DNA from: a virus
IMG/VR virus record: IMGVR_UViG_3300044684_000192
Coordinates: 1 to 21,029 of that record
DNA length: 21,029 bases
Strand: one strand, 5' to 3'
Shown: positions 3,926 to 21,029 of the stretch, piece by piece
Layout of the letters: every line of letters starts with the position of its first letter
How positions within the stretch are numbered: position 1 is the stretch's first letter
The notes under the pieces: generated by a model
Databases searched by the model: none
What the model saw: only the letters and a program-made list of their open reading frames with translations
Told to the model about the DNA's origin: nothing
Position numbers and translations under genes: made by a program

Positions 3926-3949
3926 CGAGGAGTTTTCGTCGAGTGGCCT

Positions 3950-3973
3950 GGGCCGCCTTGTGCGGCCCTTTTT
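3950..3973 (+). terminator. Rho-independent terminator between head and tail genes
   Basis: A 7-bp GC-only stem (GGGCCGC / GCGGCCC) with a 5-base loop is followed directly by TTTTT. It lies in the 61-base gap after the capsid/cement genes and 14 bases before the tail gene start. Inside a late operon it probably attenuates rather than stops transcription, lowering tail gene expression relative to capsid genes. Confidence 0.8.
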
Positions 3974-3986
3974 CCAGGGGTAGGCG

Positions 3987-6893: not shown

Positions 6894-6894
6894 C

Positions 6895-7714: not shown

Positions 7715-9651
7715 CAGCCGCGCTGAAACTGACGTTCGACCCGCAACAGGGCTACCAGAACCTGAAGGGTGACGCCGCGCTGACGCGCCCCAACGGGCAG
7801 GCCCTGGCCGACGAGTACGGGCAGAAGTTGCGCGACCAGCTTTCGGACATCGCCGGCAACCTAGGCAACGACCGGCAACGGCTGCTGTTCCAGCAGCAGG
7901 CCGGCGGTCTGCTGACCAGCTTCACCGGCGACGTCGAGCAGCACACGCTGCGCGAGTACATCAACTACCACGCCGAGACCAACGAGGGGGCGATCAAGCT
8001 CGAGACGAACAACGCGAAGCTGAACTGGAACAAGCCGGACCAGATCCAGCAGTCCCTGGAGCGCGTGCAGGCGGCCAACTACTCCATGGGCCAGCTGCGC
8101 GGCGACCCGGCGAACCTGATCGCGGCCAACGGTCAGGCGCTGGTGTCGAACGTGCACCGCGAGGTGATCCAGGCCGCGCTGGAGAACAGCAACCCAACCT
8201 ACGCGCTGGACTACTTCGGCCGCAACAAGGGCCAGATGACGGCCGACGACATCCTGCGCACGCAAGGCCTGGTGAACACCGCGACCTGGCAGCAGGCGAG
8301 CATGGCCGCGGTCAACGCCGCCGGCGGCGACCTGCAGCGCCAGATGGCGCCGACCGACTTCGACCGCATGGTCGACATCACGCTGGCCAGCGAGAGCGGA
8401 GGCAAGCGCTACGGGCCGGACGGCAACCTGCTAACGAGCTCGGCCGGCGCCAAGGGCGAGATGCAGGTGCTGGACGGGACCAACACCAACCCCGGCTTCG
8501 GCGTGAAGCCGGCGCAGGACAACAGCCCCCAGGAGCGCGCCCGTGTCGGCCGCGACTACCTGCAGGCGATGCTGCAGCGCTACGGCGACCCTGCCAAGGC
8601 CTGGGCCGCCTACAACGCCGGTCCCGGCAAGGTGGACGCCGCGCTGAAGGCAGCCGGCCCGGACGGCGACTGGCTGGCCCAGCTGCCCACCGAGACCGAG
8701 AACTACGTCACCCGCAACCTTAGCCAGCTGCAGACCCCGCAGCCCACGGCGCGGCCGCAGGAGTCCGACTTCGTCGCATCGGCCCTGGCCAAGCTGCCGG
8801 CCAACGCGCCGCCGCAGCTGGTCAAGCTCACCCGCGAGGCCGCGACGCAGCAGTTCGCGATCATCAACAAGTCGTTCAACGAGCAGCGCGACAACGCGGT
8901 GATGGACGCCCAGCGCGCGCTGATCCAGGCCGGCGGCGACATCACGCAGGTGGCGCCCGAGGTGCTGGCGAAGGTGCAATCGATCGCGCCCGACAAGTAC
9001 GACGACCTGATCAAGTTCGGCCGCACGATCAGCCGCGGCGAGAACCAGAGCGACCCCGCGACCTACACGGTGCTGGCATCGAATCCGGGCCTCATGGCAA
9101 AGATGGGTGATGCCGACTTCCTGATGCTGCGCAACAAGCTCAGCAACGCGGACTTCGAGCACTTCGCGCGCGAGCGCGCCGACATGCTTACCGGCACGTC
9201 TAAGAACAGCCCGATGGTCATCGACACCGAGGCGCTGAACGACGTGCTGAACAACCGCTTGCTGTCGATCGGGATCGATCCCCGCCCCAGCTCCGAAGCC
9301 GACAAGCAACGCATCGGCGAGATCCAGAAGTTCGTACGCGACGCGATCTATATTCGCCAGGGCCAGAGTGGCCAGAAGATGACACCGGTCGAGCTGGAGC
9401 AGTTCATCGACCAGCAGTTCGCCAAGTCCATAACCTTCCGCAACACGGTGTTCGGTGTCGACACGACGAAGGAAACCGTGCCCCTGCTGGGCATGAAGAT
9501 TGGGGATGTGCCAGCGGCCGACCGGCAGGCGGTCCGCGATGCGCTATTGCAACGCGGCTGGGCGGCGCCGACGGATCAGGACATCCTGAACGTCTACTGG
9601 CGCTGGAAGGCCCGTGGCGGACCACAGCCCCCTGTTCAACCGGGGGGTTAG
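7489..9651 (+). CDS. Ejection (internal virion) protein with lytic transglycosylase domain
   Basis: A 720-residue protein with start ATG 7489. Residues 1-285 are Gln/Ala-rich and helical. Residues about 290-405 are an SLT-type lytic transglycosylase domain: the probable catalytic Glu302 in TLASESGG, then SAGAKGEMQVLDGT, then the conserved AYNAGPGKVD. The C-terminal 300 residues are helical and of internal virion protein type. Such proteins travel in the head, are ejected with the DNA, and locally cut peptidoglycan to pass the genome through the cell wall. It follows the gp14-like gene by three bases and closes the late operon before a strong terminator. Its first 75 codons and the preceding 40 bases occur again, with three synonymous changes, at the right edge of the window. 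Confidence 0.88.
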   Translation: MPRVPTYDDYQVMPNVAPAGGVGLPTMNPQLTGGRQLQDLGQGMQQAGQAAGGIALDMQDQVNQVRVTDAMNQARAAALKLTFDPQQGYQNLKGDAALTRPNGQALADEYGQKLRDQLSDIAGNLGNDRQRLLFQQQAGGLLTSFTGDVEQHTLREYINYHAETNEGAIKLETNNAKLNWNKPDQIQQSLERVQAANYSMGQLRGDPANLIAANGQALVSNVHREVIQAALENSNPTYALDYFGRNKGQMTADDILRTQGLVNTATWQQASMAAVNAAGGDLQRQMAPTDFDRMVDITLASESGGKRYGPDGNLLTSSAGAKGEMQVLDGTNTNPGFGVKPAQDNSPQERARVGRDYLQAMLQRYGDPAKAWAAYNAGPGKVDAALKAAGPDGDWLAQLPTETENYVTRNLSQLQTPQPTARPQESDFVASALAKLPANAPPQLVKLTREAATQQFAIINKSFNEQRDNAVMDAQRALIQAGGDITQVAPEVLAKVQSIAPDKYDDLIKFGRTISRGENQSDPATYTVLASNPGLMAKMGDADFLMLRNKLSNADFEHFARERADMLTGTSKNSPMVIDTEALNDVLNNRLLSIGIDPRPSSEADKQRIGEIQKFVRDAIYIRQGQSGQKMTPVELEQFIDQQFAKSITFRNTVFGVDTTKETVPLLGMKIGDVPAADRQAVRDALLQRGWAAPTDQDILNVYWRWKARGGPQPPVQPGG

Positions 9652-9656
9652 CGAAC

Positions 9657-9687
9657 AACGGGCCCTTTGCGGCCCGTTTGCCTTTCT
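9657..9687 (+). terminator. Rho-independent terminator ending the late operon
   Basis: A perfect 8-bp stem (AACGGGCC / GGCCCGTT) with a six-base loop is followed by a T-rich tail (TTGCCTTTCT), starting 6 bases after the stop codon of the ejection gene. It marks the end of the structural block. Confidence 0.85.
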
Positions 9688-9706
9688 AACGCCAGTCACG
9701 CGGGTC

Positions 9707-9806
9707 GTGATTCCAAATTATGCGCTTGTGATTTCGAATGACATGGGATAGAGTCGGATCACCGACGCGCGCCAACGCTTCGGTGATCCTGACCACACCC
9801 GATCAC
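9707..9806 (+). promoter_or_regulatory. Promoter with direct-repeat and dyad operators for the accessory operon
   Basis: A candidate sigma70 promoter has -35 TTGTGA at 9726-9731, a 17-base spacer and -10 TAGAGT at 9749-9754. Just downstream, a perfect 10-bp inverted repeat (GGATCACCGA at 9756-9765 and TCGGTGATCC at 9780-9789) overlaps the expected start of transcription, with a further half-site GATCAC at 9801-9806. Upstream, GTGATTCCAAAT (9707) and GTGATTTCGAAT (9728) are direct repeats 21 bases apart, the second overlapping the -35. This is the layout of a regulated promoter. The regulator is not known; the HTH protein at 10254 is a candidate. The -10 is only a partial match to consensus. 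Confidence 0.5.
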
Positions 9807-9819
9807 TAGGAGATCGAAC

Positions 9820-10257
9820 ATGGCTACTCAGCACTCTACCTCGCTCGCGCCTGGATTCGCCGCCTATGGCGAGTGGCTGCCGCACTCCACCCAGGACGTC
9901 GAGTTCTACAAGAAGCGGTTCGGCTTTTCGACCGAGGTCGCCACCACGACGCACTTCATCGAGCGCGAGATCTACGAGTGGTCCCGCGACTCGGAACTGA
10001 GCACGGCGGAACTGGCTCGCGCCCTTGGGTGGCACCCGGCGCTGGTCCGCGCCTGTGGCCACTTCGGCGGCGACTGGCTGTTTGCGGTGGGAGAGGATGG
10101 CTTGGTGTACGCCGGGGACGTTGCAGCGCACCTGGCGCGCTGCATCTACGACGACCGCTACGCCGCTGCGTTCAACGAGTTGCGCGAGTGGGCCATCCAG
10201 CGTTGCCTCGACCGCCTGGAAGGTGGTGCGGCACCCACCAAGGAGCAACTGCAATGA
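9820..10257 (+). CDS. Hypothetical protein, first gene of the accessory operon
   Basis: A 145-residue soluble protein, start ATG 9820 with TAGGAG upstream. I do not recognise the family. It is rich in Trp, Phe and Tyr with conserved-looking segments FYKKRFGFSTEV, EIYEWSRDSELSTAELARAL and FGGDWLFAVGEDG, and it is helical towards the C-terminus (DDRYAAAFNELREWAIQRCL). The STAELARALGWHPALVRACG segment looks like a helix-turn-helix, so DNA binding is possible. The stop overlaps the ATG of the next gene (ATGA), indicating translational coupling with the HTH/coiled-coil gene. Confidence 0.7.
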   Translation: MATQHSTSLAPGFAAYGEWLPHSTQDVEFYKKRFGFSTEVATTTHFIEREIYEWSRDSELSTAELARALGWHPALVRACGHFGGDWLFAVGEDGLVYAGDVAAHLARCIYDDRYAAAFNELREWAIQRCLDRLEGGAAPTKEQLQ

Positions 10258-10748
10258 GCCTCGTGATCGACGCATTCCTGCTGGAAAAGTACGGCCCCCG
10301 TCTCGACACTGAGCAGCTGGCCGAAGTGCTCGGCACGACTGCCGGCACCATCCGCAACCAGATCAGCGCTGGGACCTTTCCGGTGAAGACCTACACGGAC
10401 GGCAACCGGCGGTTCGCCGACTACCGGGACGTGTCGGCCTTCTTCGATGAGGCCCGGATGCGCGCCGTCGCCGCGGCGCAGGCGCCGAGCTCCAGCCCGG
10501 CCGTCGCGAGGAAGCTGCCGACCAAGATGTCGCTTGAGCAGGCGGGTGCGATGATGTTGTCGCGGCTTGAGCAGGTGAGGCCGAAGACCGGCAACCTGCT
10601 CCCGTTCGACAACGCTTGGAACGGCGTGAATGCCTACCAGGCGGTGGTGAACTACACGATCGACCACCTGTGGAAGCTGATCGAGGACCAAGACCGTAGG
10701 ATCGAGGACCAGGGCCGCAGGATCGACGCGCTGGAGGCTCGCGCATAG
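10254..10748 (+). CDS. Helix-turn-helix DNA-binding protein with C-terminal coiled coil
   Basis: A 164-residue protein. Start ATG 10254 overlaps the previous stop (ATGA) and has AAGGAG upstream; longer in-frame starts lie inside the previous gene. Residues 15-60 contain a helix-turn-helix (LDTEQLAEVLGTTAGTIRNQ) followed by a beta wing (FPVKTYTDGNRRFADYRDV), the MerR/AlpA-type winged arrangement used by phage excisionases and regulators. The middle (about residues 75-130) is a linker region. The C-terminal 25 residues repeat IEDQDRRIEDQGRRID and form a short coiled coil, so it is probably a dimer. It may regulate its own operon through the dyad at 9756-9789; that is inference. Confidence 0.72.
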   Translation: MSLVIDAFLLEKYGPRLDTEQLAEVLGTTAGTIRNQISAGTFPVKTYTDGNRRFADYRDVSAFFDEARMRAVAAAQAPSSSPAVARKLPTKMSLEQAGAMMLSRLEQVRPKTGNLLPFDNAWNGVNAYQAVVNYTIDHLWKLIEDQDRRIEDQGRRIDALEARA

Positions 10749-10759
10749 GGGTGGCGCAG

Positions 10760-11116
10760 ATGGGGATGATTCTGTCCAAGGACGAGATCGCCCAGCTGAC
10801 CAGTCGAACCAGGCGAGACGCACAGGTGCTTCAGCTCAACTACCTGGGTGTGACGTACCGCGTTCGAACTGACGGAAGCATCGTGGTGCTTCGCGCGCAC
10901 GTCGAACGGCTGTTCGGTGTGACGCCTTCAACCGAAGCACCTCGGCAGCCGCCCGCGCCGTTCGTAATCGCACCCGCGGGCTCACCGGTTGATCCATCCC
11001 CATGGACTCGTGAGGCGCTGTTCGGCAGCGCGCCGAAGACGAAAGAACAGCGCGCGGGCGAACGTATCGCCAAGGCGCGCAAGAACGCGATCGCCAAGGG
11101 CTGGCGCAAGAAGTAG
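10760..11116 (+). CDS. DUF4224 domain protein
   Basis: A 118-residue basic protein. Of the candidate starts (GTG 10751, ATG 10760, ATG 10766) the ATG at 10760 is best placed behind AGGGGTGG. The N-terminal 50 residues (ILSKDEIAQLTSRTRRDAQV then YRVRTDGSIVVLRAHVERLF) match the DUF4224 pattern, a short domain frequent in phage and prophage accessory proteins, with an HTH-like first half. Biochemical function is not established to my knowledge. The middle is Pro-rich and the C-terminus strongly basic (AGERIAKARKNAIAKGWRKK), consistent with nucleic acid binding. Confidence 0.7.
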   Translation: MGMILSKDEIAQLTSRTRRDAQVLQLNYLGVTYRVRTDGSIVVLRAHVERLFGVTPSTEAPRQPPAPFVIAPAGSPVDPSPWTREALFGSAPKTKEQRAGERIAKARKNAIAKGWRKK

Positions 11117-11149
11117 GTAAACCGCGCCCATGAACAACGGGGAGGAATG

Positions 11150-11734
11150 ATGGCAGACCCTCAGTACTGCTTTCTCTACTTGGACACTTGGTGGAGCTGT
11201 CTAACGAAGGCGGAGTGGGCAGCCTGGACCACCTTTGGCGCGACGCTCCTCGGTGGGGTGGGGGCCGTCGGCGCGGTTTACGTCGCGGCCCGAGTCGCGA
11301 GGACCCAGTCAATGCTCGCGGAACAGAACCGGCGAGCAGATGCGCGAGATGATCGGCTTAGGAGCCTGACGATTTGTTGCGAAGCGGTCAAAGAGGCAAA
11401 GGCAACGGCGGCTTTGGCTTTAGAAACCCGACGGAACTCAGCCGTGTTTGACGTTGGCGCTGCGGCACGGTTCCAAGCCCTGGAAAAGACTCTCGCTGAG
11501 TGCCTCAAAGATCGTGTTGCGATCGATGCGATCGGGCCAATCACGAAGGCCAGGCAAGCGACCTCGGCGCTGATTCGCTTGTTCTACGACTCTGTGTTGG
11601 AGCGCCCTCAATTCGAGGCGCAGTGGGTGGTCTTCTTCCACGAGCTCAAAAACGCCGGTGACACTCTTGAAGCTCTTCGAGAAACTGTGACACTCGAAGT
11701 CGCCGGTGCGACTCGGAGTACCGGCGCCTCCTGA
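11150..11734 (+). CDS. Single-pass membrane protein with cytoplasmic helical domain, unknown function
   Basis: A 194-residue protein. Two ATGs are adjacent (11147 and 11150); the second has the better spacing from GGAGGA. Residues about 20-47 form one transmembrane helix (WTTFGATLLGGVGAVGAVYV), preceded by a short Trp/Cys-rich segment and followed by a charged helical region (VARTQSMLAEQNRRADARDD) typical of a stalk. The rest is helical and soluble. This arrangement is common among small host or prophage membrane proteins of unknown role, and also fits superinfection-exclusion proteins; it lacks the short length usual for a holin. AT content is a little higher than in the structural genes, consistent with separate acquisition. 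Nothing here proves a defence role. Confidence 0.65.
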   Translation: MADPQYCFLYLDTWWSCLTKAEWAAWTTFGATLLGGVGAVGAVYVAARVARTQSMLAEQNRRADARDDRLRSLTICCEAVKEAKATAALALETRRNSAVFDVGAAARFQALEKTLAECLKDRVAIDAIGPITKARQATSALIRLFYDSVLERPQFEAQWVVFFHELKNAGDTLEALRETVTLEVAGATRSTGAS

Positions 11735-11742
11735 GCTGAAGG

Positions 11743-11773
11743 AAGGGCCGGCGGCCCTTTCGGGACGCCGGCC
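11743..11773. terminator. Hairpin between convergent genes, probable bidirectional terminator
   Basis: A perfect 8-bp inverted repeat (GGCCGGCG at 11746-11753, CGCCGGCC at 11766-11773) and an overlapping 7-bp one (AAGGGCC / GGCCCTT, 3-base loop) lie between the stop codons of the convergent genes ending at 11734 (+) and 11780 (-). T-tracts on either side are short, so efficiency is uncertain. Confidence 0.5.
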
Positions 11774-11779
11774 TTCACA

Positions 11780-11893
11780 TCAGAGGTGTTTGGACAAGTA
11801 CACCAGAAGAGCCCAACCGATCCGCTCGAGCCAGCGGCCGAACTTTGCGATCTGCTCTTCGGTGAACTCCACCTCAACGGTTGCTTTGACCAT
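11780..11893 (-). CDS. Small amphipathic protein (37 residues), unknown
   Basis: A short reading frame on the minus strand: start ATG at 11893, stop at 11780. It reads MVKATVEVEFTEEQIAKFGR and then WLERIGWALLVYLSKHL. There is a good ribosome site, AAGGGA, seven bases before the ATG. It has a beta-like first ten residues, an acidic helix and a hydrophobic C-terminal helix (WALLVYL), so it may be peripheral to the membrane or a dimer. A perfect 14-base palindrome and a TATAAG -10-like box lie upstream. It is the only minus-strand gene I support. No family recognised. Confidence 0.45.
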   Translation of the reverse strand: MVKATVEVEFTEEQIAKFGRWLERIGWALLVYLSKHL

Positions 11894-11915
11894 TGGGTAA
11901 TCCCTTGGCTTCAGC

Positions 11916-11953
11916 CCCGTGCGCACGGGACGTTAATCCCGATTGAACTTATA
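11916..11953 (-). promoter_or_regulatory. Palindromic operator and -10-like box upstream of the 37-residue gene
   Basis: The perfect palindrome CCCGTGCGCACGGG occupies 11916-11929. On the minus strand it follows a TATAAG box (complement of 11948-11953; 5 of 6 matches to a -10) and precedes the ribosome site of the small gene. No convincing -35 was found, which would fit an activated promoter, or may mean the box is chance. Confidence 0.35.
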
Positions 11954-12177
11954 GAGCGCCCTGGCTGGCGCTGCCCATTGCTTATTCGAAATCACTTTGG
12001 GCGGTAGGCTCGCGCGTTCAAACACTTGGCGGAACCGCTGCGAGGGTGTCCGGGCCGAGTAGTCGGGCCGGGTCCTCGCAGGGGTAGCCTCAGCGCTTTC
12101 CTGCACTCACCTGCGGTTGCTGGCCGCACCTCCGGCTTAGCAGGCCTTTGGCGGTTACATTATGACCCGCAGATAGG

Positions 12178-12418
12178 TGGCGGACCGAATGGCGGACGGG
12201 GATCCGAATCGACCGGAGAGCTAGTATTTGCGCGGGTCTTGACAGACCCCCTTTCCGCCAGTACGCTGTGCCCGCACGATGCAATGCAGTGCAGGACAGT
12301 GACGCTAAGCAGTTGATTTGACTGCTGTTTTCTCCCTCTACAGACTGCGGCACCGTGCAATACGGTGCCAGCCACGTGCATGCGAATGCAGCACTTGCTG
12401 GCGGACAGACTGGCGGAC
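12178..12418 (+). repeat. Paired TGGCGGAC direct repeats upstream of the integrase (probable integrase arm sites)
   Basis: TGGCGGAC occurs at 12178-12185 and 12190-12197, then again at 12399-12406 and 12411-12418; both pairs have 12-base periodicity and are followed by GG. The second pair ends 11 bases before the integrase ATG. Related TGGCGG elements occur near 12025 and 12149, with a reverse copy at 12255-12260. Repeated short sites beside a tyrosine integrase gene are usually the arm sites of attP. No att core can be named because the other end of the element is outside the window. Apart from these repeats, the 12239 promoter and the small minus-strand gene, I see nothing coding in 11.9-12.43 kb. 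Confidence 0.5.
12239..12267 (+). promoter_or_regulatory. Candidate integrase promoter with a dyad over the -35
   Basis: A consensus -35 TTGACA at 12239-12244, a 17-base spacer and TACGCT (12262-12267) as a weak -10 read towards the integrase. The -35 is the loop and arm of the inverted repeat GGGTCT-TGAC-AGACCC, so a bound dimer would block polymerase. The match of the -10 is poor (3 of 6), hence modest confidence. Confidence 0.4.
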
Positions 12419-12429
12419 GGAGAACTGGA

Positions 12430-13752
12430 ATGCCAAAGCGGCGACTCCCAGCGCGCCTGCACCTGCTCACGGTGCGGCAAGTTCAGACAGCCGGCGAGGG
12501 CGACCATAGCGATGGTGGAGGGCTGATCCTCCGCGTTCGCGACGGCTCCGCCTCCTGGGTGTTCAGGTACACAGCAGCGACCGGCAAACGGCGCGAGATG
12601 GGCCTGGGGTCCGCACACCGTGCGAACCCCGCCCAGGCCGGCGAAAGCGTCGTGCAGGCCCGAGAAACGGCCGGCAAGGCGCGCGGGCAGCTGCAGCAAG
12701 GGCTCGACCCGATCGACGAACGCGAACGGCTGCGCGCGCAGCAGCGCCATGCGGTAACGGAGACCAAGGCCGCCAAGGCTCGTGACGCGCTCACCCTGGC
12801 GCGCGCCGCGCGCGACTACCACCAACGGGTGATCGAGCCCAGTCGCACCGGCAAGCACGCGGCGCAGTGGATCTCGTCCCTTGAGAACCACATCCCGCCC
12901 AGCCTCTGGCACAAGCCCGTTCACCTGGTCGAGGCGCCCGAGCTGCTGGAGGCGTTGCTGGCCATCAAGCCGCACGAGCGCGCCAGGAACCTCACGCAGG
13001 GCGACCGGGTGCTGGAAACCGTCCAGCGAGTCCGCCAAAGGCTCGACGCGGTGTTCGAGGACGCGCTGTTCCACCAGCGGTGCATGAGCAACCCCGCCGC
13101 TGCTATCAAGCGCAAGCTGCGTGAGAGCATGCCCCGGAAGCGCAAGGGGGAGTTCGCCGCGCTCCCCTATGCCGAGGCGCCAGGCCTCGTCCAGCGCTTG
13201 CGCGCCATGGACGGCATCGCGGCGCGTTGCCTCGAGTTCGGAATGCTGACGGTGGCGCGCACCGGCGAGCTGATCGAGGCCGACGAGACCGAGCTGGATC
13301 TCGACCGAGCCTTGTGGGTGATCCCCGGCGAGCGCATGAAGGCCGGCGAGGAGCACACCGTCTACCTCGGCCATCGAGCTGCCGCGATCGCTCGCGAGAT
13401 GCTCGCGCTACCGCTGCCGGACGACGCTGAGAAGCGCTGGCTGTTCCCGTCGCCGATGCTCGACGGCAAGCCGCTGAGCAATGGTGCGATGCTCGCGTTG
13501 CTCAAACGCCTGGGCGTGAACGACCGCACCACGGTGCACGGGCTGTGCCGGGCGACGTTCAGCACATGGGCCAACGAGACCGGCGCCGCGCGGCCCGACG
13601 TCATCGAGGCCTGCCTGGCCCACGAAGAGAGCAACCGCGTGCGAGCTGCATACAACCGTGCCGAGTTTGCTGCGGAGCGGCGCGCGCTGCTCGAAAAGTG
13701 GGCCGCCTTCCTGAGCGCGTCCAACGTTGTTCAGTTGCCTCGCGCCGCTTGA
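12430..13752 (+). CDS. int: Tyrosine recombinase / integrase
   Basis: A 440-residue protein. The frame opens at GTG 12355, but that extension reads through the direct repeats; ATG 12430 (MPKRRLPARLHLLTVRQVQT) with CGGAG upstream is the natural start. Residues 1-95 are the DUF4102-type N-terminal arm-binding domain (SDGGGLILRVRDGSASWVFR), about 120-225 the SAM-like core-binding domain, and 240-420 the catalytic domain. The active residues are visible: Arg277 (VARTGE), Lys304 (RMKAG), His370 and Arg374 (VHGLCRATFSTWANE, with one residue more than the usual H-x-x-R), His398 (CLAHEE) and the nucleophile Tyr408 (RAAYNRAEF). It integrates and, with an excisionase, excises the element by site-specific recombination. 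It is the first gene of the satellite-like element, 185 bases before an alpA-like gene. Confidence 0.94.
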   Translation: MPKRRLPARLHLLTVRQVQTAGEGDHSDGGGLILRVRDGSASWVFRYTAATGKRREMGLGSAHRANPAQAGESVVQARETAGKARGQLQQGLDPIDERERLRAQQRHAVTETKAAKARDALTLARAARDYHQRVIEPSRTGKHAAQWISSLENHIPPSLWHKPVHLVEAPELLEALLAIKPHERARNLTQGDRVLETVQRVRQRLDAVFEDALFHQRCMSNPAAAIKRKLRESMPRKRKGEFAALPYAEAPGLVQRLRAMDGIAARCLEFGMLTVARTGELIEADETELDLDRALWVIPGERMKAGEEHTVYLGHRAAAIAREMLALPLPDDAEKRWLFPSPMLDGKPLSNGAMLALLKRLGVNDRTTVHGLCRATFSTWANETGAARPDVIEACLAHEESNRVRAAYNRAEFAAERRALLEKWAAFLSASNVVQLPRAA

Positions 13753-13787
13753 GACGGTGCACCTAACTCGGATCCGGAGCGAGACAG

Positions 13788-13894
13788 TGCCCGGGGTGGT
13801 ACCCATACCGGCATTTGCACGCACGAGGATGCAGGGTGGTACCCATACCTGCAACGGCAAGCCGGAATATGCATGGTGCGCGTACCGGCATGCA
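13788..13894 (+). promoter_or_regulatory. Three phased dyad elements upstream of alpA
   Basis: Three units of 24-26 bases lie at 13788-13813, 13830-13853 and 13870-13894. Their centres are about 41 and 40.5 bases apart, roughly four helical turns. Each has TGC-type outer arms in inverted orientation (TGCAGG/CCTGCA in the second, TGCATG/CATGCA in the third) around a core with GTACC. The first two share GTGGTACCCATACC exactly. This looks like an operator array for cooperative binding, placed in the integrase-alpA gap. The same 12-mer GGTACCCATACC occurs at 1078-1089 in the only gap before the capsid genes. Confidence 0.55.
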
Positions 13895-13937
13895 GAACAC
13901 GCAGGATGTACGCACACGGACTGACGAGAGGACCGCA

Positions 13938-14228
13938 ATGGCAGATAGCACAACCATCCCAACCCTTCTCACGTTTGAGCAGCTGGCGAAGCACGTCTAC
14001 AACGTGTCCGTTCGTCAGCTTCGGAACATGAGCAAGGATCCCAACTTCCCGAAAGCGATCGTGCTTGGGCCGCGCACACTGCGTTACGTCAAGGCAGAGC
14101 ACGAAACCTACATCGCATCGCATTCGCGCCAGCTGGGCGAAGAGCCTAAGCAGCTCTCCGCGGCGCGAGCAGCGAAGGCCAGCGGCCGCGCTCCTGCACC
14201 GGCACCCTTCAACGGGGCGTTGGCATGA
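13938..14228 (+). CDS. AlpA-like helix-turn-helix regulator / excisionase
   Basis: A 96-residue protein, start ATG 13938 with GAGAGGA upstream; upstream in-frame sequence runs through the dyad repeats and is not coding. Residues 10-60 carry the AlpA-type winged helix: LLTFEQLAKHVYNVSVRQLR, MSKDPNFPKAIVLGPRTLRY, then AEHETYIASHSRQ. AlpA-like proteins activate the early operon or integrase of P4-like and PICI-like satellites and can serve as excisionases. The tail (residues 65-96) is Ala/Pro-rich and disordered. It follows int directly and leads an operon of overlapping genes ending with the primase, the classic int-alpA-primase order of satellites. The dyads upstream are its probable binding sites or those of another master regulator. 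Confidence 0.82.
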   Translation: MADSTTIPTLLTFEQLAKHVYNVSVRQLRNMSKDPNFPKAIVLGPRTLRYVKAEHETYIASHSRQLGEEPKQLSAARAAKASGRAPAPAPFNGALA

Positions 14229-14314
14229 ACGCACAGCACCCAACACCTCGAACCCGGCCTATGTGCCGGGTTCGTCGCTTCTGGACCTATACAACTTTTT
14301 GGTTGTACCTATGA
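14225..14314 (+). CDS. Coupled 29-residue peptide (leader-like)
   Basis: An ATG at 14225 overlaps the alpA-like stop (ATGA), and the frame ends in a TGA at 14312-14314 that overlaps the ATG of the next gene, again ATGA. The peptide starts MNAQHPTPRTRPMCRVRRF and ends in an aromatic stretch (FWTYTTFWLYL), so it is basic then hydrophobic. Two hairpins lie inside it. Its translation would carry ribosomes through the hairpins to the following start codon, which has no ribosome site of its own. Peptide function is unknown; it may act only by being translated. Confidence 0.4.
   Translation: MNAQHPTPRTRPMCRVRRFWTYTTFWLYL
14249..14307 (+). promoter_or_regulatory. Two RNA hairpins inside the coupled leader peptide
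   Basis: The first hairpin has a perfect 10-bp stem (CGAACCCGGC at 14249-14258, GCCGGGTTCG at 14265-14274) with a 6-base loop. The second has a 6-bp stem (TACAAC at 14290, GTTGTA at 14302) with loop TTTTTG and ends three bases before the next ATG at 14311. Neither has a proper T-tract after it, so they fit translational control or RNA processing better than a plain terminator. Confidence 0.5.
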
Positions 14315-14499
14315 ACGACAGCCAAGCGACCTACGCGGCAGCGCTTCGAGCTGCGAAGCTGCTCGCCGAGGCGATCGACCTCGCAACGTATCAGCAAGTC
14401 GTCGCGCTGGCTCAGCTGGCGGACACGACATATGACGACTTGCGAGATGCGGTGCGTCTGGTGCAAGACGTCGTCATCGGACCCGAGGCAGTGCGATGA
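14311..14499 (+). CDS. Small helical protein (62 residues), unknown
   Basis: Start ATG 14311, within ATGA of the leader peptide stop; upstream in-frame sequence overlaps alpA and is not convincing. The protein (MNDSQATYAAALRAAKLLAE onward) is almost entirely helical, Ala/Leu rich and acidic at the end, with no recognised motif. It ends in ATGA with the following zinc-finger-like gene. Small helical proteins in this position, between alpA and the primase, are common in satellites and often unknown. There is no ribosome site, so expression probably depends on the coupled upstream frame. Confidence 0.6.
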   Translation: MNDSQATYAAALRAAKLLAEAIDLATYQQVVALAQLADTTYDDLRDAVRLVQDVVIGPEAVR

Positions 14500-14687
14500 A
14501 CGTCCAACGCGCAACAGGACGCACCGATTGCGACCGGTGCGGCTCGGTGGCCTACCTGAACGAGCAGCGACTGTGCGCGCGGTGCGTGCAAGCCCTGCAG
14601 GCCCTCGCCAGCGGCATGCTGATCGAGCGCGCGCTCTACGCCCCAGCGACACCACCAAAAGAGGAGAAGCCCAACGATGAACCTTGA
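14496..14687 (+). CDS. Small zinc-ribbon protein
   Basis: A 63-residue protein starting in ATGA overlap with the previous gene. Two CxxC pairs (Cys12/Cys15 in CDRCG and Cys27/Cys30 in CARCV), separated by 11 residues, make a treble-clef or zinc-ribbon site. The rest is a helix and a Lys/Glu/Pro tail. Such knuckles bind DNA or RNA or mediate protein contacts; no precise family recognised. The stop overlaps the primase start by 11 bases, and the AGAGGAG that would serve the primase lies inside its last codons. Confidence 0.65.
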   Translation: MNVQRATGRTDCDRCGSVAYLNEQRLCARCVQALQALASGMLIERALYAPATPPKEEKPNDEP

Positions 14688-16845
14688 GGAATGGAACAAG
14701 GTGGTGGGAGGCACGCAAGCGCCTGCACCGACCAAAAATGGAACGGCCCGGGGCGTGTCAGCACCCCAGGCCGCGAAAGTCAAAAGCATCGAAAGCAGCG
14801 AGATCGTACAACCTGCCCAAGCCGACGACAAGGCGGCGGCGTTCATCGAGCGGGTCGTCTCGTTGCCCGCCACTGCGCCGGCGCCGCTGCGCGGGCTGCC
14901 CGGCTGGCTGGTATGGAAGGCCGAGCGCGACGGCGAGCGCGTGCGCAAGGTGCCGTACTACGCTGAAGGCGGCCGGCGGGCAGGCCTGCAAGGTGCACCC
15001 GAGGACCGCGCGCAGCTCGTGACCTTCGAGGCCGCCTGCACGGCGGCGCTTCGCAGGGGCTTCGACGGCGTCGGGCTGGCCCTCATGCCGGAGTGGGGCG
15101 TGTGCGCGCTGGACTTCGATCGATGCATCGGGGACTCGGGCGAGCTGCCCGCGGAGATCCGGGATATCGCGTCGCTCACCTATGCCGAGCGTTCGCCGAG
15201 TGGGCGAGGTGTTCGCGCCTTTGTGCGCGGCAACCTCGGAGACCACAAGGACCACGGCGAGCCCTACGGCTTCGAGGTGTTCAGCACGAAGGGCTTCGTG
15301 ACGGTCACCGGCGATCGTCTCGACCTGGTCGACATGCTCGGCAACGAGGACGTCATCGCGGACCCGCCGGCGTGCCTGCTTGCCTTGTGCGAGACGCGCT
15401 TTCGCCGCCAGGATGCTGAGGCCAGCCCGGACGCTGTGTCGGCACCGCTGGGGCTTGCCGTCGAGGACCTGCAGCGGGCGCTTGCCGTCCTCGACCCAAG
15501 CATGCCCCATGACCCGTGGCTGAGGGTAGGCATGGCCCTGCACCACGAGACGGCAGGAGAGCGGTTCGATCTCTGGGACGAATGGTCGAGCCGAGGGAAC
15601 ACCTACCCGGGCACGGAGAAGCTGCGCGAGCGGTGGGACAGCTTCGGCCGCTCCACGCGCCAGGTCACCGCCGCCTGGTTGATGCACCTGGCGAACGAGT
15701 GCGGCGCAGGCATCAACTTGGCGTCCCTCGTGGCCGACGATTTCGAGGTGATCAGCGACGCGCCTGCTATGCCGCGATCGTCCCAGCGCGAACTCAAGCA
15801 AGCTGACCAGGTTGACTTCATCGACTTCGCGCAGCTTGCGGTTGCGCCACCCCCGCCGCGGCGCTGGGTGGTCGACCAGTGGTTGCCGCGCGGCGCCGTG
15901 ACCGCACTGTTCGGCCGCGGCGGCCACGGTAAGTCCCTCGCCGCCCAGCAGCTGGCGATCGCAGTGGCCAACGGCCTTCCATGGCTTGGCTGGGCCACTA
16001 CGGGCGGGCCAGCCTTGGGCATGTTCTGCGAGGACGACGCCGACGAGCTCCTGCGACGAGCAGGCGACATCTTCGCCAGCGAGCTGCTGGAACCTGCGCA
16101 AGCCAGCGGGGGCTTGTTTCTGGACGCACGCGCCGGCAAGGTCAACACGCTGATGTCGTTCGGGCAGGACCACGTCGGGCGCCCCGAACCGCTGCTCGTC
16201 GAGTTGCGGCATCAATGCAGCCAGCTGCGGCCGGCCCTGGTGGTGCTGGACAACATCGCGCAGATGTTCGCGGGTCAGGAGAACGCGCGGGCGGAGGCCA
16301 CCCAGTTCTGCAACGCGCTGACCGCCATCGCGCGAGAGTTCGATTGCGCGGTGCTGCTGCTTGGCCACCTGGCCAAGGCCGAAGGGTCCGAGTTCAGCGG
16401 CTCAACGGCATGGGATGCGGCGGTGCGCTCGCGATTGATGCTCGAGCGGCAATCGGACGGCACGACGGTGCTGCGCAAGCTGAAGGCGAACTACTCGGAC
16501 CTGGACGAGATCCGGCTGCAGTACCGGGCGGGCTGCTTTGCGGCGCTGCCCACGGGTGCCAATGCGCCTCCGGATCTTGTCGAGGCGGTGAAACATGCGG
16601 TCGTTGAAGCAGTGCACGCGCTCACCGCCAGGCGGCAGCCTACGTCCCACAACCCGACGACTCGCAACTACCTGCCGAAGCTGATGGTTGCCGAGGGGCT
16701 CAACGAGGGCCACGGCGTCGATCTGCTTCGCTCGGCTATGGGCGCGTTGATCGACGCGGGCACGCTCATCCCGGACGCGGAGCTCTGGCGAAAGCCCGAT
16801 CGCCACATGGCAACTGGGCTTGCGTTGGCAGAGGGCGCACGATGA
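14677..16845 (+). CDS. Primase-polymerase / RepA-like helicase fusion replication protein
   Basis: A 722-residue protein, start ATG 14677 with GAGGAG upstream. Residues 1-70 are a linker. Residues about 72-230 are an archaeo-eukaryotic-type primase-polymerase domain: acidic pair in CALDFD (Asp146 and Asp148), SPSGRGVR at 173-180 and VTGDRLD at 210-216. Residues about 262-342 are a PriCT-2 domain (LRVGMALHHE; TEKLRERWDSF). Residues about 395-620 are a RepA/RecA-like ATPase: Walker A GRGGHGKS at 413-420, CEDDADELLRR at 451-461, Walker B LVVLDN at 521-526, and GHLAKAEGSEFSGSTAWD as the sensor region. The tail is a small winged-helix-like domain. It would prime and unwind the element's own DNA, like P4 alpha protein in role. 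The probable origin lies directly downstream. Confidence 0.9.
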   Translation: MNLEEWNKVVGGTQAPAPTKNGTARGVSAPQAAKVKSIESSEIVQPAQADDKAAAFIERVVSLPATAPAPLRGLPGWLVWKAERDGERVRKVPYYAEGGRRAGLQGAPEDRAQLVTFEAACTAALRRGFDGVGLALMPEWGVCALDFDRCIGDSGELPAEIRDIASLTYAERSPSGRGVRAFVRGNLGDHKDHGEPYGFEVFSTKGFVTVTGDRLDLVDMLGNEDVIADPPACLLALCETRFRRQDAEASPDAVSAPLGLAVEDLQRALAVLDPSMPHDPWLRVGMALHHETAGERFDLWDEWSSRGNTYPGTEKLRERWDSFGRSTRQVTAAWLMHLANECGAGINLASLVADDFEVISDAPAMPRSSQRELKQADQVDFIDFAQLAVAPPPPRRWVVDQWLPRGAVTALFGRGGHGKSLAAQQLAIAVANGLPWLGWATTGGPALGMFCEDDADELLRRAGDIFASELLEPAQASGGLFLDARAGKVNTLMSFGQDHVGRPEPLLVELRHQCSQLRPALVVLDNIAQMFAGQENARAEATQFCNALTAIAREFDCAVLLLGHLAKAEGSEFSGSTAWDAAVRSRLMLERQSDGTTVLRKLKANYSDLDEIRLQYRAGCFAALPTGANAPPDLVEAVKHAVVEAVHALTARRQPTSHNPTTRNYLPKLMVAEGLNEGHGVDLLRSAMGALIDAGTLIPDAELWRKPDRHMATGLALAEGAR

Positions 16846-16947
16846 GCGGCGTTGCTGCTGCGGGCTTGATGGGGCAACGCCGCATTAGCAACCCCGCAAG
16901 CCCGCGCCGTGAGGAGGCTGCTTTGCGGCGTTGTTGCTGCGGGATTG
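16846..16947 (+). repeat. Interleaved inverted repeats (pseudoknot topology) and a 23-bp direct repeat after the primase gene
   Basis: Arms GCGGCGTTGC (16846-16855) and GCAACGCCGC (16874-16883) form a perfect 10-bp stem. GCGGGCTTG (16860-16868) and CAAGCCCGC (16897-16905) form a perfect 9-bp stem whose left arm lies in the loop of the first, giving a-b-a'-b' order. The 23 bases from 16846 recur at 16925-16947 with two changes. It begins at the primase stop codon. An RNA pseudoknot, a processed small RNA, or an origin structure are all possible. Confidence 0.6.
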
Positions 16948-17145
16948 CCTGCGGGATTGGTCGAAAGGAAACCCGCAGCGCCGCAAGAAGGCGCGGCGGT
17001 GTTCCCCCCTACAAAGGGGACACCGCGCCGCCGCACTCGGTTGCCGCCGCGGGATCGTTGGCAAGCCCGCCCCTGGGCGCGCAACAAACCGCAACGCTCT
17101 GCACCGTGCGCCCGATGGGCCTGTCGCGTGTTGCACACCGCTGGC

Positions 17146-17436
17146 GAAATGTGACGCCTACGCGCGTGCGCGGGGCCAGGGAATCTCACACCCGAAAAGC
17201 ATTCGAACACCTAAAAGGCCGCGTGGTTTGCACCACCCGGCGGACAGTGCCGCCTGGCGTTGGAAATCGACACCTAAAAAGGGCGACGGCTCAGTCGAGG
17301 GCCAGCGTAGGAAATCGACAGGTGAGGACTCCCCGGGGTCGCCTGTCGGCCAATCGGCATTTTTCTGCACGCTGCGGTTTTCTGCGTGGTTCGCACGCGT
17401 GTTCGCTCCCTGCCGCTTCCGGATGTGACACCTCAA
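17146..17436 (+). other. Iteron-like repeats, probable replication origin region
   Basis: Degenerate copies of a motif around GGAAATCGACACCTAAAAGG occur at 17146-17160, 17180-17199, 17199-17218, 17262-17283, 17310-17324 and 17419-17436. The 11 bases GGAAATCGACA are identical at 17262 and 17310, and CACCTAAAA at 17209 and 17271. They fill a 690-base stretch (16846-17536) with no credible gene between the primase/helicase and the next gene, the place where P4-like satellites often keep replication sites. A 233-codon open frame crosses the stretch but has no protein-like composition. The origin role is inferred from position and repetition. Confidence 0.5.
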
Positions 17437-17536
17437 GCGTCCGCCTAACCTGCTGCAAACACACGCGTGCGGGGCTTGCGCCTTCCACGTCCGCCACTGG
17501 GTCCGCCATCGACGCGGCAGCGAGGGGGAGCGCAGC

Positions 17537-18037
17537 ATGCTGACCATCACCACCGATGCCTTCGATTCGCCGGGGCAACTGGCCGCCGCGGTGCGTCTGG
17601 CGATCGAGGGTCGACCGGGGCCTTTCGTCCCGCAGCTCATGGCTCTGTGCTGCGAGCTCATGCGAAGCGTCGCAGCGCCGCCGCGTCACGTTCCTGCGCC
17701 CCTGGTGTTGGCGCCCCAGGGCGACCGCACCTTCGCCACCGCCGGCGGCAACTGGGAGCCGCCGTCGCCGTTGCCGGCCGTGCAGCTGTTTCTTCTGGCC
17801 GCACGCCCGGACGACTGGGTGCCTCTCGATGGGGGCGTCCAGCGGCTGCCAGCGGTTCGAGCCGCGCTCAAGCGTGCCCGCGAGGGCCTGGCGCAGCTGG
17901 ACCCCCGCTTCGCGGTCGTATTCCGGACAGCCCGCACGGAGAACGCGACCGGCCTGCGGCTGCGCACGTGGCAAGGCCTGGTGATGGGGCGGCTGCGCAC
18001 GAACGGCAACACGCCGATTCGAATAACCGTCACATAG
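17537..18037 (+). CDS. Hypothetical protein of the satellite-like element
   Basis: A 166-residue protein, start ATG 17537 with GAGGGGGAG upstream. Family not recognised. It is rich in Ala, Leu, Arg and Pro; residues 10-50 are helical with two adjacent cysteines (ALCCELM), the middle is Pro/Gly rich (PAPLVLAPQGDRTFATAGGN) and the end has a basic segment (LRTWQGLVMGRLRTNGN). No membrane segment. It is the first gene after the origin-like region, 48 bases before the next gene, so it may open the late or packaging part of the element. A role in acting on the helper phage is possible but unsupported by motif. Confidence 0.65.
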   Translation: MLTITTDAFDSPGQLAAAVRLAIEGRPGPFVPQLMALCCELMRSVAAPPRHVPAPLVLAPQGDRTFATAGGNWEPPSPLPAVQLFLLAARPDDWVPLDGGVQRLPAVRAALKRAREGLAQLDPRFAVVFRTARTENATGLRLRTWQGLVMGRLRTNGNTPIRITVT

Positions 18038-18085
18038 CCGTCACTCGCTTGGCGATGCCCGGTGCCCGCGCCCACCATGCTGGGC

Positions 18086-18829
18086 ATGAGCACCAGCAAC
18101 GACATCGCGGAACAACTCGTCGCCATCGACCGGGAGATCGAGGCACAGCGGCAGACCTGCGTGAACGCTGCCGCTGCGATGGCGAAGGCACCAACGGACA
18201 AGGCCGCGCGTACAGCGCACCGCAAGGCAAGCGGGCACTTGGCCGAACTCGTCGCGGACCGGGAAGCGCTGAAGGCGGCCTTCGATCTCGCGGCTGTGGC
18301 CGACCGCGAGCAGCGCCGCGCGGAGCGCATTGAGCGCGCCAAGCAGCTATGCGAGACGGCATCTCAGGCCCAGGGTGCGCGATCGACCAAGGCATTCATG
18401 CTGGAGATCGCGCTGGCCCACTTCGTCAACGCCCTGGCCGACTGGGCTGGCGCCCAGCAGGACTTCGAAAACGCGATCGCCAACTGCGCGAGCACATTGC
18501 TCACGGACAACGCCAGGGCCGCCGGCTTCGCCGTCGATCGCCGGCGCGAGGTGGTCGAAGTGGAGGTGAACCGGGCGGCTTGGCACCGCTACAGCTTGGC
18601 CAATGAACTCGCGAAGCGCATGTTCCGCGCGTCTGCGCTCCTCGGGCACGCAGGCGCGGAACACCTGGCGGTGAAGTTCATGGGCAACCCTAACGAGCTC
18701 GAATCACTGCACCAGGCCGACGTGGAGAACGGCGCAGCTGCCGTCTTCGGCTTGCGCGACTTCGTGAACCGCTGGAGCAAGCCCCTGGTCACTGAAGAGC
18801 AGGACGGCGTCGAGGCGGCGGCGAAATGA
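18086..18829 (+). CDS. Helical protein upstream of the second scaffold gene, unknown
   Basis: I place the start at ATG 18086 (MSTSNDIAEQLVAIDREIEA), giving 247 residues; ATG 18077 and GTG 18062 are in frame and possible, and none has a strong ribosome site. The protein is almost wholly helical: residues 5-95 form long charged heptad-like helices (LAELVADREALKAAFDLAAV; DREQRRAERIERAKQLCETA), followed by a globular helical part with FMLEIALAHFVNALADWAGA. No family recognised. It is coupled by ATGA to the scaffold-like gene. Coiled-coil proteins beside scaffolds could be assembly or size-determining factors, but this is speculation from position. Confidence 0.65.
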   Translation: MSTSNDIAEQLVAIDREIEAQRQTCVNAAAAMAKAPTDKAARTAHRKASGHLAELVADREALKAAFDLAAVADREQRRAERIERAKQLCETASQAQGARSTKAFMLEIALAHFVNALADWAGAQQDFENAIANCASTLLTDNARAAGFAVDRRREVVEVEVNRAAWHRYSLANELAKRMFRASALLGHAGAEHLAVKFMGNPNELESLHQADVENGAAAVFGLRDFVNRWSKPLVTEEQDGVEAAAK

Positions 18830-19455
18830 TCGACGCCAACGTCCTCTACCCGTCCGCAACGCCGGCTGCAGCACCCGCTCCGCAAGCAGCTGCCGCTCCG
18901 GCGCCGGTGGCCGCATCGCCTGCACCGGCCGCGAGTCCAGAGACGGCGGATACGCGAGTCGATGAGCTGTACGCAGGGCCTGCAGAAGCAGCGCCGCTCG
19001 CGGTGCCGGAGAACATCCGCGCGCTGAGGAAGGCGAGCGAGTCGACAGCCGACATGCTGTACGGCGCCACAGCGGTCGACCCGGTGATTGCCGGCATCTT
19101 CGAAGGTGCGGAGCTCACAGTCCCGGAGCGCAAGGCAGCTTCGGTGGAGATGACCCGCATGGCGCGCGACGTGGGCCTCGACCAGGACGACCTGGCGGAA
19201 ATGGCGAGCCGTGCGCCGGACGTGCGGCAGCTCACGCCGGAACAAGTGGGCCGCAACCAGGCCGAGGCCGCTCGCATGCTGCGGGAGGCATTCGGCGACC
19301 AGGCCGCGCAGGCCTTGGCCGATGCGCAGAAGCTGGCCCTGCGCGATCCACGTACGGCAGCCCTGCTGGACAAAACAGGCCTGGGCAACGACCCCCAGAC
19401 CATCCTCAAGTTCGCCCGACTGGCAGTGCGTGAACGCAGCCGTGGGCGCCTCTGA
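18826..19455 (+). CDS. Scaffold-like protein of the satellite-like element
   Basis: A 209-residue protein starting in ATGA overlap with the previous gene. The first 60 residues are Ala/Pro repeats (disordered) and the rest is helical and charged. Two blocks resemble the scaffold-like protein at 1425-2105 in the same order. Residues 97-130 (MTRMARDVGLDQDDLAEMAS) match its LARDLNLPQDAAQKLAEA region. Residues 171-200 (ALRDPRTAALLDKTGLGNDP then QTILKFARLA) match its ADPKGELAELLESTGFGDHP and EVIRAFHRIG. It is followed by a second cement gene, but there is no major capsid gene in between as there is in the resident phage. An alternative scaffold acting on the helper capsid protein could change capsid size. 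Homology is judged by eye. Confidence 0.65.
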   Translation: MIDANVLYPSATPAAAPAPQAAAAPAPVAASPAPAASPETADTRVDELYAGPAEAAPLAVPENIRALRKASESTADMLYGATAVDPVIAGIFEGAELTVPERKAASVEMTRMARDVGLDQDDLAEMASRAPDVRQLTPEQVGRNQAEAARMLREAFGDQAAQALADAQKLALRDPRTAALLDKTGLGNDPQTILKFARLAVRERSRGRL

Positions 19456-19472
19456 CCTTGTAAGGAGCGACG

Positions 19473-19916
19473 ATGTTCCACGATGCACTTTTGAGCCTCT
19501 CCTCGGCTCAGACCGTCACCGGCTCAGCCGCGGTGACGTCCACCAACACGATCGATGTCGGCTCCGTGCGGGATCTCGTGGGCACTGACCCCCCGATCGT
19601 CGAGGTCTCGGTCAACACGTCCTTCGCCGGCCTGACCTCGCTGGAGGTGCAGGCCATAGCGTGCTCCGACCCTTCGCTGATGTCGAACCTCGCCGTGGTT
19701 GGTTCGTCGGGACCGATTCCTGTGGCGAGCCTTACCGCTGGCGCGCGGTTCGCCGTGGCTCTCAGTGCCCGCAATGCCCTCGCCGGTCAACGCTACCTTG
19801 GACTGCGCTACGTCATCACTGGCGTGGGCACAGCAGGCGTGGTGTCGGCGAGCCTGGCGCCGCAAATCCAGGACGGCGGACAGAAGATCGTCACGCCGAC
19901 CTTCACCATCATCTGA
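19473..19916 (+). CDS. Second Bbp16 family capsid cement protein
   Basis: A 147-residue protein, start ATG 19473 with AAGGAG upstream. It is the same length as the cement protein at 3166-3609 and shares its main motifs: DALLSLSSAQTVTGS, FAGLTSLEVQ, LTAGARF, GQRYLGLRYVITGVGTAG and IQDGGQK. The most divergent part is residues 28-50. It should therefore bind the outside of a BPP-1-type capsid as trimers. Being a diverged paralogue and not a recent copy, it may be adapted to a different capsid geometry or compete with the resident protein. It follows the scaffold-like gene by 17 bases. Confidence 0.88.
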   Translation: MFHDALLSLSSAQTVTGSAAVTSTNTIDVGSVRDLVGTDPPIVEVSVNTSFAGLTSLEVQAIACSDPSLMSNLAVVGSSGPIPVASLTAGARFAVALSARNALAGQRYLGLRYVITGVGTAGVVSASLAPQIQDGGQKIVTPTFTII

Positions 19917-19927
19917 CGGAGAGCCCT

Positions 19928-20197
19928 ATGCCCAAGTATCGAGTCCTCGAAAAGTCCTTCATCGACAACCACATCCGCGAGGCTGGCGACGTCGTCGAGT
20001 ACGACGGCTACCCCAGTGAAAACCTCGAGCCCCTGTGCGACGAAGGCCGCGCCAAGCAGGAGGAAGGCTTCAAGCTTCGCGAGCAGCAGCTTCGCGACTT
20101 GGTCGAGCAGGCGAAGCAGCCGGGCTTCTTTGTGGTCGGCGCGCGCGAGCCGAAGACGCCGCCGCCTCCCGCTCCCGATGGGCAAGGGGTGGTCTGA
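19928..20197 (+). CDS. Second copy of the small protein that follows the cement gene
   Basis: An 89-residue protein with start ATG 19928 and CGGAG upstream; longer in-frame starts overlap the cement gene. Its first 50 residues match the protein at 3620-3925 closely (MPKYRVLEKSFIDNHIREAG; DVVEYDGYPSENLEPLCDEG; RAKQEEGF). The C-terminal halves are unrelated: here a short helix and a Pro-rich end (PKTPPPPAPDG). Conservation of the cement + partner pair in both clusters argues for a shared capsid-related function of the N-terminal domain. Confidence 0.8.
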   Translation: MPKYRVLEKSFIDNHIREAGDVVEYDGYPSENLEPLCDEGRAKQEEGFKLREQQLRDLVEQAKQPGFFVVGAREPKTPPPPAPDGQGVV

Positions 20198-20209
20198 AGG
20201 GCGTCGACC

Positions 20210-20557
20210 ATGAGCACGAACCTCACCGCTGCGGTGCGTCGGCTCATGGCCGAGCATCCCAACCTCGGCCCCTTCGGGTGGCGCGACACACCCAGCCCGT
20301 TCACGCCCACAAGCGACTTCATCAACCAGGTGGCAGCAGCGGCGGACTACATCAGCCTGCGCGGGTTGCCGCTGCGATGCGGTAGCTACGCGCTCCAGCA
20401 CCTGGTCGAGGAACACAAGCGCATGTACGTGTCGAACGGTGCGCTGATCGTGGCCGCGCTCTTGGCCGGCTATCGACCTGTTCGCTACGGCAGTGGACCC
20501 AACTGCCGCTTCGAGGCGCCTGTCGCCCAGGCCGCCGCCGCCCAGGCCGCCGCCTAG
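20210..20557 (+). CDS. Hypothetical protein with Ala-rich tail
   Basis: A 115-residue protein, start ATG 20210 with GAAGGG upstream. No confident family. The core has RGLPLRCGSYALQHLVEEHK followed by RMYVSNGALIVAALLAGYRP, a helical, slightly hydrophobic segment that resembles small DNA-binding or accessory proteins of mobile elements; the end is an imperfect Ala/Gln repeat (VAQAAAAQAAA). There is no counterpart in the resident phage block at the same place, where the tail tube genes lie, so it is specific to the second cluster. Confidence 0.6.
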   Translation: MSTNLTAAVRRLMAEHPNLGPFGWRDTPSPFTPTSDFINQVAAAADYISLRGLPLRCGSYALQHLVEEHKRMYVSNGALIVAALLAGYRPVRYGSGPNCRFEAPVAQAAAAQAAA

Positions 20558-20584
20558 TTCGACAAACAAGTCAGGAGCATCCCA

Positions 20585-20800
20585 ATGGTCAACGACACGT
20601 GCCCAATAAACTGGGCCAACCCCTACTTGCAAGACGCAGCCGACTACCTGAACGGAATCGGACCGGTGGGCCTTGATTGGCACCCGAACGACGCCGCGGG
20701 GACCAAAGGCACGACGCAGCCTTCGCAGACCGACGATTCGACTGCCCCAGCCGAAGCGACCGGCGACTTCTCGCGCATGGACCGCGGACAGGGAGGCTGA
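20585..20800 (+). CDS. Chimeric 71-residue protein ending in the tail of the gp14-like protein
   Basis: Start ATG 20585 with AGGAG upstream. The first 58 residues (MVNDTCPINWANPYLQDAAD onward) are unlike the internal virion protein at 6895-7485, but the last 13 (TGDFSRMDRGQGG) are the same, and the DNA identity with the resident phage begins there and runs on through the ejection gene. This is what a recombination joint inside the 3' end of a gene would leave. The N-terminal part is acidic and Trp/Tyr containing, with no recognised motif; whether the protein is functional or only keeps the frame in order is open. Confidence 0.6.
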   Translation: MVNDTCPINWANPYLQDAADYLNGIGPVGLDWHPNDAAGTKGTTQPSQTDDSTAPAEATGDFSRMDRGQGG

Positions 20801-21029
20801 GCAATGCCACGCGTTCCGACCTACGACGACTACCAGGTGATGCCGAACGTCGCCCCCGCGGGCGGCGTCGGCCTGCCGACGATGAACCCGCAGCTGACCG
20901 GAGGCCGGCAGCTGCAGGACCTGGGGCAAGGCATGCAGCAGGCCGGTCAGGCCGCCGGCGGCATCGCCCTGGACATGCAGGACCAGGTCAACCAGGTCCG
21001 CGTGACCGATGCGATGAACCAGGCGCGCG
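20762..21029 (+). repeat. Long direct repeat, right copy (ejection gene start)
   Basis: The right copy of the repeat at 7447-7714. Three base changes in 268 (GGG/GGA, TTG/CTG, GGC/GGA codons) contrast with the strong divergence of the cement and scaffold paralogues, showing that this part was acquired or converted much later. Confidence 0.95.
20804..21029 (+). CDS. Second ejection protein gene, 5' part (runs off the window)
   Basis: The first 75 codons of a gene starting at ATG 20804. The encoded residues are identical to the first 75 of the ejection/lytic transglycosylase protein at 7489-9651; only two synonymous base changes occur within the visible coding part (Leu TTG/CTG and Gly GGC/GGA). 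The transglycosylase domain would lie beyond the right edge, so it is unknown whether the copy is complete. If it is, the element carries its own ejection protein, which is unusual for a satellite. Confidence 0.8.
   Translation, partial: MPRVPTYDDYQVMPNVAPAGGVGLPTMNPQLTGGRQLQDLGQGMQQAGQAAGGIALDMQDQVNQVRVTDAMNQAR

Follow-up and report, generated by a model that had tools for sequence, protein, structure and literature searches.

A candidate satellite of BPP-1-like podophages with its own scaffold, cement and ejection genes

Results

The window analysed is an entire virus contig of 21,029 bp. Its positions 1–7401 carry late genes of a helper-type podophage, all on the plus strand and recognised by PHROG and Pfam matches. 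The window begins with the end of a tail-fibre gene, which lies ahead of an ORF at 567–1076, a Bbp19-like gene (1118–1465), the resident scaffold (1425–2105), the major capsid gene (2120–3145), a Bbp16-type cement gene (3166–3609), its partner (3620–3925), the tail genes A (3987–4685) and B (4686–6893), and gp14 from 6895. The canonical BPP-1-like order scaffold-capsid-cement-tail is found here and in about 50 relatives, and by its gene matches this segment is a typical BPP-1-like podophage late operon. The first 201 bp of the window overlap exactly with the end of contigs L012/L013. L012 (IMG/VR contig 3300044684_000245) is the upstream half of the helper, with a repressor-like gene, primase, terminase, portal and tail fibres. 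Its tail-fibre module also contains an esterase-like protein (L012 11530–12729, recognised by eye from the sequence), and a minus-strand gene at the contig end (L012 3–539) encodes a protein in which an ATGYQGAASA-type repeat occurs many times.

The block that follows is referred to below as S1, the window satellite. It opens on the plus strand with a 720-aa ejection protein (7489–9651; endolysin-like PHROG 10475), after which no gp16-like gene is found, and continues with four small plus-strand genes that probably belong to the satellite (9820–11734), encoding proteins of 145 aa, 162 aa (HTH_17), 121 aa (DUF4224/excisionase-like) and 195 aa. A plus-strand tyrosine integrase with an arm-binding domain (12355–13752; PF13356, PF22022 and PF00589) probably has its true start near 12430, and is related to the integrase of the L075 element described below (E 5e-11, shuffle z 21.9). 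An AlpA/excisionase-like regulator (13815–14228, plus strand) matches PHROG 66 (E 4e-7), its Pfam AlpA match (E 0.025) lying below the cut-off. Between the integrase and the AlpA-like gene, two 40-bp direct repeats (78%) lie side by side (13794–13873) and are possible integrase arm sites. The plus-strand primase-helicase (14677–16845) is a mosaic: its helper-like N-terminal part (aa 63–436) is 55% identical to the L012 primase, and its satellite-like helicase part (aa 264–715) is 46% identical to the L075 primase. Two further plus-strand genes encode a 166-aa protein without family (17537–18037) and a 255-aa all-helical protein (18062–18829), a candidate assembly factor whose AlphaFold2 model is helical and mostly of low confidence. 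The unassigned ORFs of S1 matched no Pfam or PHROG family, and none of the satellite ORFs run through PADLOC was recognised as a defence gene. No tRNA-type att site was detected in 11600–12500 by Rfam or blastn, and the ends and att site of S1 were not found. IMG/VR searches for close relatives of the S1 scaffold, helical protein and primase returned nothing or the helper contig L012 only, and the S1 primase as a query of the genomes gave no match. A primase-helicase profile run against IMG/VR recovered five unrelated elements, all devoid of cement and scaffold.

At the far end of S1, positions 18826–20800 hold a compact late cluster of open plus-strand frames that departs from the canonical order. 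It reads scaffold (18826–19455; 209 aa, with an N-terminal [LF]Y motif, MIDANVLYPS, and a shortened C-terminus), Bbp16-type cement (19473–19916; 147 aa, Pfam Bbp16 E 2e-16), partner (19928–20197; 89 aa, PHROG 590), a 115-aa protein (20210–20557) without family, and a 71-aa protein (20585–20800), followed by the start of a second ejection gene (20804–21029). AlphaFold gave a low-confidence model of the 115-aa protein, and its fold was uninformative. The cement shares 49% amino acid identity with the resident cement (E 2e-41) and the partner 68% with its resident counterpart across 63 aa (E 3e-31), while the ejection product is identical to that of the resident in all 75 residues present. The scaffold resembles phage scaffolds, matching PHROG 458 (E 1e-3), the scaffold of L007 (E 1e-7) and the resident scaffold (shuffle z 8.8). 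An earlier note had described this cluster as the resident order with capsid and tail-tube genes removed. That order holds, and every ORF it named is present, intact and on the plus strand; its list of losses was too short, since the Bbp19-like gene and gp14 are absent as well, and the ejection gene that it counted as kept is represented by its start, cut by the contig end.

A homology search of 7442–20756 for capsid, portal, tail-tube and fibre genes found none, and terminase is also absent from S1. Several S1 ORFs belong to no family, which leaves some room for a capsid gene too divergent to be recognised. Such a capsid-forming element is nonetheless highly improbable: Bbp-type scaffold and cement, as found in S1, pair with a Bbp17-type capsid that is well conserved in relatives and missing here, and the cluster holds no unassigned ORF of similar size.

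Cement profiles yielded about 50 loci from viral contigs and bacterial genomes, in a search that covered roughly 1000 distinct genomes and IMG/VR. The viral loci, together with L018 and L019, show the canonical order with the capsid gene adjoining the cement gene. The other bacterial cement loci are mostly prophages with a capsid, the two exceptions being L074 and L075, both Burkholderiales chromosomes. Wider cement-profile matches in genomes proved to be prophages with a capsid or genomes already covered, and L088 (genome G139) has a weak cement match. The whole search yielded three elements of this kind: S1, S2 (in L075) and S3 (in L074).

S2 (genome G171) measures 13,856 bp and is flanked by 20-bp repeats, one of which is the 3′-end of ssrA. 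It encodes an integrase, AlpA (Pfam E 8e-10), primase, resolvase, a 188-aa protein, a 287-aa helical-looking protein, scaffold, a 135-aa protein, a small ORF, cement, TerS and TerL. A serine recombinase of invertase-like type lies within it (L075 13582–14280), none being seen in S1 or S3, and a Fic-domain protein (L075 4193–5194; PADLOC SoFic, E 2e-38) is located directly outside its att repeat. S3 (genome G050), of ~15.8 kb, splits a tRNA-Leu gene, whose halves were assigned by eye and not called by ARAGORN, next to uvrC-pgsA-tRNA-Gly-tRNA-Cys. Its genes are integrase, primase, a 314-aa helical-looking protein, cement, gp14, an HTH protein, ejection and two gp16-type pieces. Homology searches of S2 and S3 found no capsid, portal, tail-tube or fibre genes. 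A capsid search of genomes G171 and G050, run without a positive control, was empty, and no resident helper was seen there. With ~13.3, 13.9 and ~15.8 kb, respectively, an integrase, a replication gene and an incomplete virion set, S1, S2 and S3 all fall within the size and content range of satellites (about 7–20 kb); integration is seen for S2 and S3, not for S1.

The earlier note had proposed gene order in related elements as a check. S2 and S3 share with S1 the lack of capsid, portal and tail genes beside open late genes, but no one order is conserved: S1 reads scaffold-cement-partner-115 aa-71 aa-ejection, S2 scaffold, two other genes, cement-TerS-TerL, and S3 cement-gp14-ejection-gp16. 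Nor is the retained set the same everywhere, cement alone being common to all three and TerS/TerL confined to S2. S1 and S2 have in common a primase-helicase part (46–53%), the integrase and the scaffold clade. S3 shares with S1 the cement, the gene plan, a short weak primase match and weak similarity between the 255-aa and 314-aa helical proteins (shuffle z 5.1, against 0.9 for S1 and the L075 protein), a helical-looking protein standing at the equivalent position in all three elements. Placing S3 in one family with S1 and S2 is tentative, as its features in common with them are few beyond cement, a weak primase match and position. In the cement tree the placement of S1 and S3 was not resolved and S2 fell near phages L047/L049 with weak support; from this poorly resolved tree the cements look to have been captured separately by the satellites. 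The TerL of S2 is 56% identical to that of the helper, and together with the helper-like N-terminal part of the S1 primase (55%) this indicates that the satellites draw on this helper family.

Random loss of capsid and tail genes from a decaying prophage would also leave late genes of clear phage origin, and both the 71-aa protein and the scaffold, with its shortened end, could pass for remnants. Yet the retained ORFs are all open, with dN/dS of ~0.46 in the cement and ~0.35 in the partner's conserved part and no amino-acid change in the ejection start, and these values and open frames make decay unlikely. Remnants of capsid, portal and tail were not found, S2 and S3 present clean, differing subsets between att-type flanks, and the satellite scaffolds have a derived architecture in common, so that we consider decay very unlikely. 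The central idea of the earlier note, an assembly and delivery set kept intact and selectively without a capsid, is supported, the element that holds this set also encoding an integrase, an AlpA-like gene product and a primase of its own.

The derived architecture concerns a short motif. An [LFIM][YF] motif, often LYPNQ, occurs in the last 15 residues of 51 of the 52 different phage scaffolds and in the first 12 residues of none of the full-length ones, while in the two satellite scaffolds it lies near the first residue (MIDANVLYPS in S1, MSDAAAILYGN in S2) and is missing from the C-terminal end; the motif had been seen in these sequences before counting, so the count is descriptive, is no independent test and concerns two satellites only. 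The S2 scaffold has a second copy at residue 39. In a scaffold tree S1 and S2 form one clade (support 100/99) apart from 41 phage scaffolds, a support to be taken with care given their long branches and unusual composition. As far as the sequences compared go, the N-terminal [LF]Y motif of both satellite scaffolds looks new.

The 71-aa protein has NPYLQDAADYLNG at its start, followed by TGDFSRMDR. Intact phages have one or more very large genes downstream of the ejection gene; the gp16-like protein of L009 begins NPYLQDAADYVNG, and that of L008 has NPYATDAADYVNG and then, later, a GDFARMD motif. Both motifs recur in the 71-aa protein in the same order. This protein, called chimeric in the earlier note, is not simply a gp14 C-terminus, its two motifs matching the gp16-like N-terminal region. 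It seems to be a miniature of the N-terminus of a gp16-like internal protein of ~2000 aa, and looks new. A search of IMG/VR for a contig with the gp16 of the helper gave only L008 and L009. The resident gp14 has an atypical C-terminus (7402–7485, plus strand) ending in TGDFSRMDRGQGG, as the 71-aa protein does; elsewhere this stretch was found only in the L008 gp16-like protein and in 20585–20800, and the gp14 C-termini of relatives differ from it. A satellite-type end on the resident gp14, unlike those of relatives, suggests a transfer of DNA from satellite to helper.

Positions 20757–21029 repeat 7442–7714 with 98.5% identity, the copies differing at four sites. The last of these (20902) lies 127 bp ahead of the contig end, which fits a k=127 assembly graph running into a shared stretch, the assembler itself being an assumption. 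The window could be one real molecule, either a phage genome that took up a satellite through one cross-over within the ejection gene or a phage whose late module was duplicated: the 13.3-kb block is bordered by direct repeats of the start of the ejection gene, the arrangement that a single cross-over would leave, the four SNPs imply that both copies are real sequences, and the satellite-type tail of gp14 points to true recombination here. Against it, the contig stops exactly 127 bp past the last SNP, as would be expected for a k=127 graph, and the large genes that follow the ejection gene in intact relatives with enough flank are absent from the window. We regard one molecule as rather unlikely. 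The resident phage and second cluster, which the earlier note had placed side by side in one genome, were probably joined through the shared ejection gene, by recombination or by assembly. The contig end of k=127 type and the ejection gene without a gp16 after it make it possible to read S1 as a 13,315-bp circle, near the 13.9 kb of S2; both the ejection gene of S1 and the circle depend on this reading of the contig.

Discussion

Positions ~7442–20800 are best explained as a ~13.3-kb satellite of BPP-1-like (Bbp16/17-type) podophages such as the 1–7401 helper, one that replaces assembly and delivery parts; we consider this likely. As two bacterial genomes carry sister elements of the same logic, a stable parasite family is probable rather than a decaying virus.

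Helper dependence, capsid redirection or resizing and the role of the ejection parts are inferred. S1 would integrate by its own tyrosine integrase and replicate by its own primase-helicase, and would borrow capsid, portal, terminase, tail tube and fibres from the helper. Its scaffold, cement, partner and helical protein would enter the helper assembly line, the most likely outcome being that capsid assembly is redirected or biased towards satellite DNA. S1 would further supply an ejection protein and, in the 71-aa protein, a stand-in for the gp16-like N-terminus, by which the internal core may fit a smaller load or carry a satellite mark. The sister elements would follow an identical plan with other retained subsets. 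More tentatively, these elements may be an undescribed family of BPP-1-like podophage satellites in which shell size and the ejection core are controlled by a permuted scaffold, whose coat-binding peptide has shifted to the N-terminus from its C-terminal place, together with a 71-aa gp16 mimic.

The CpmB study describes a C-terminal RIIK motif in both SaPI1 CpmB and the 80alpha scaffold, which in CpmB binds coat (PMC5644958). By analogy the [LF]Y motif may bind coat too, and both systems have a satellite-encoded scaffold with a short motif common to the helper scaffold. CpmB is an alternative internal scaffold of 72 residues with RIIK near its C-terminus, whereas the satellite scaffolds here are phage-scaffold homologues of 209–270 aa with the motif at the opposite end. 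P4 Sid/Psu and PLE TcaP likewise modify the shell with satellite proteins on a borrowed coat, but Sid and TcaP are external scaffolds without helper homologues (PMC10945586, PMC11718236), in contrast to the helper-scaffold homologue and helper-type cement seen here. The cf-PICIs also carry phage-derived head genes but make their own capsids (PMC11389934), while S1–S3 lack a capsid gene.

Of the traits examined for PICI, an AlpA-like gene and a primase are present, and TerS/TerL occur in S2 only. Kapi1, the helper of the PICI EcCIMP1, is a podovirus. EcCIMP1 shares the plan of integrase, AlpA and primase and has a temperate helper, but internal ejection or cement genes are not mentioned in the portion of its description consulted (PMC11773190). 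A review notes that further satellite families have recently been proposed in marine and soil bacteria. Those aside, no satellite family like the present one was found in the open-access literature, a body that leaves most subscription journals outside.

In satellites known so far, either an unrelated or minimal scaffold alters the size of the capsid, or the element builds a capsid itself. The satellites here appear to have dropped the capsid and to retain full-length relatives of helper scaffold and cement together with internal ejection proteins, which, if true, would be another route to virion takeover. In BPP-1-type podophages, coat binding would then likely fall to the short scaffold peptide, and the 71-aa protein would serve as a natural experiment showing how much of a huge gp16-type protein, and which region, suffices for incorporation.
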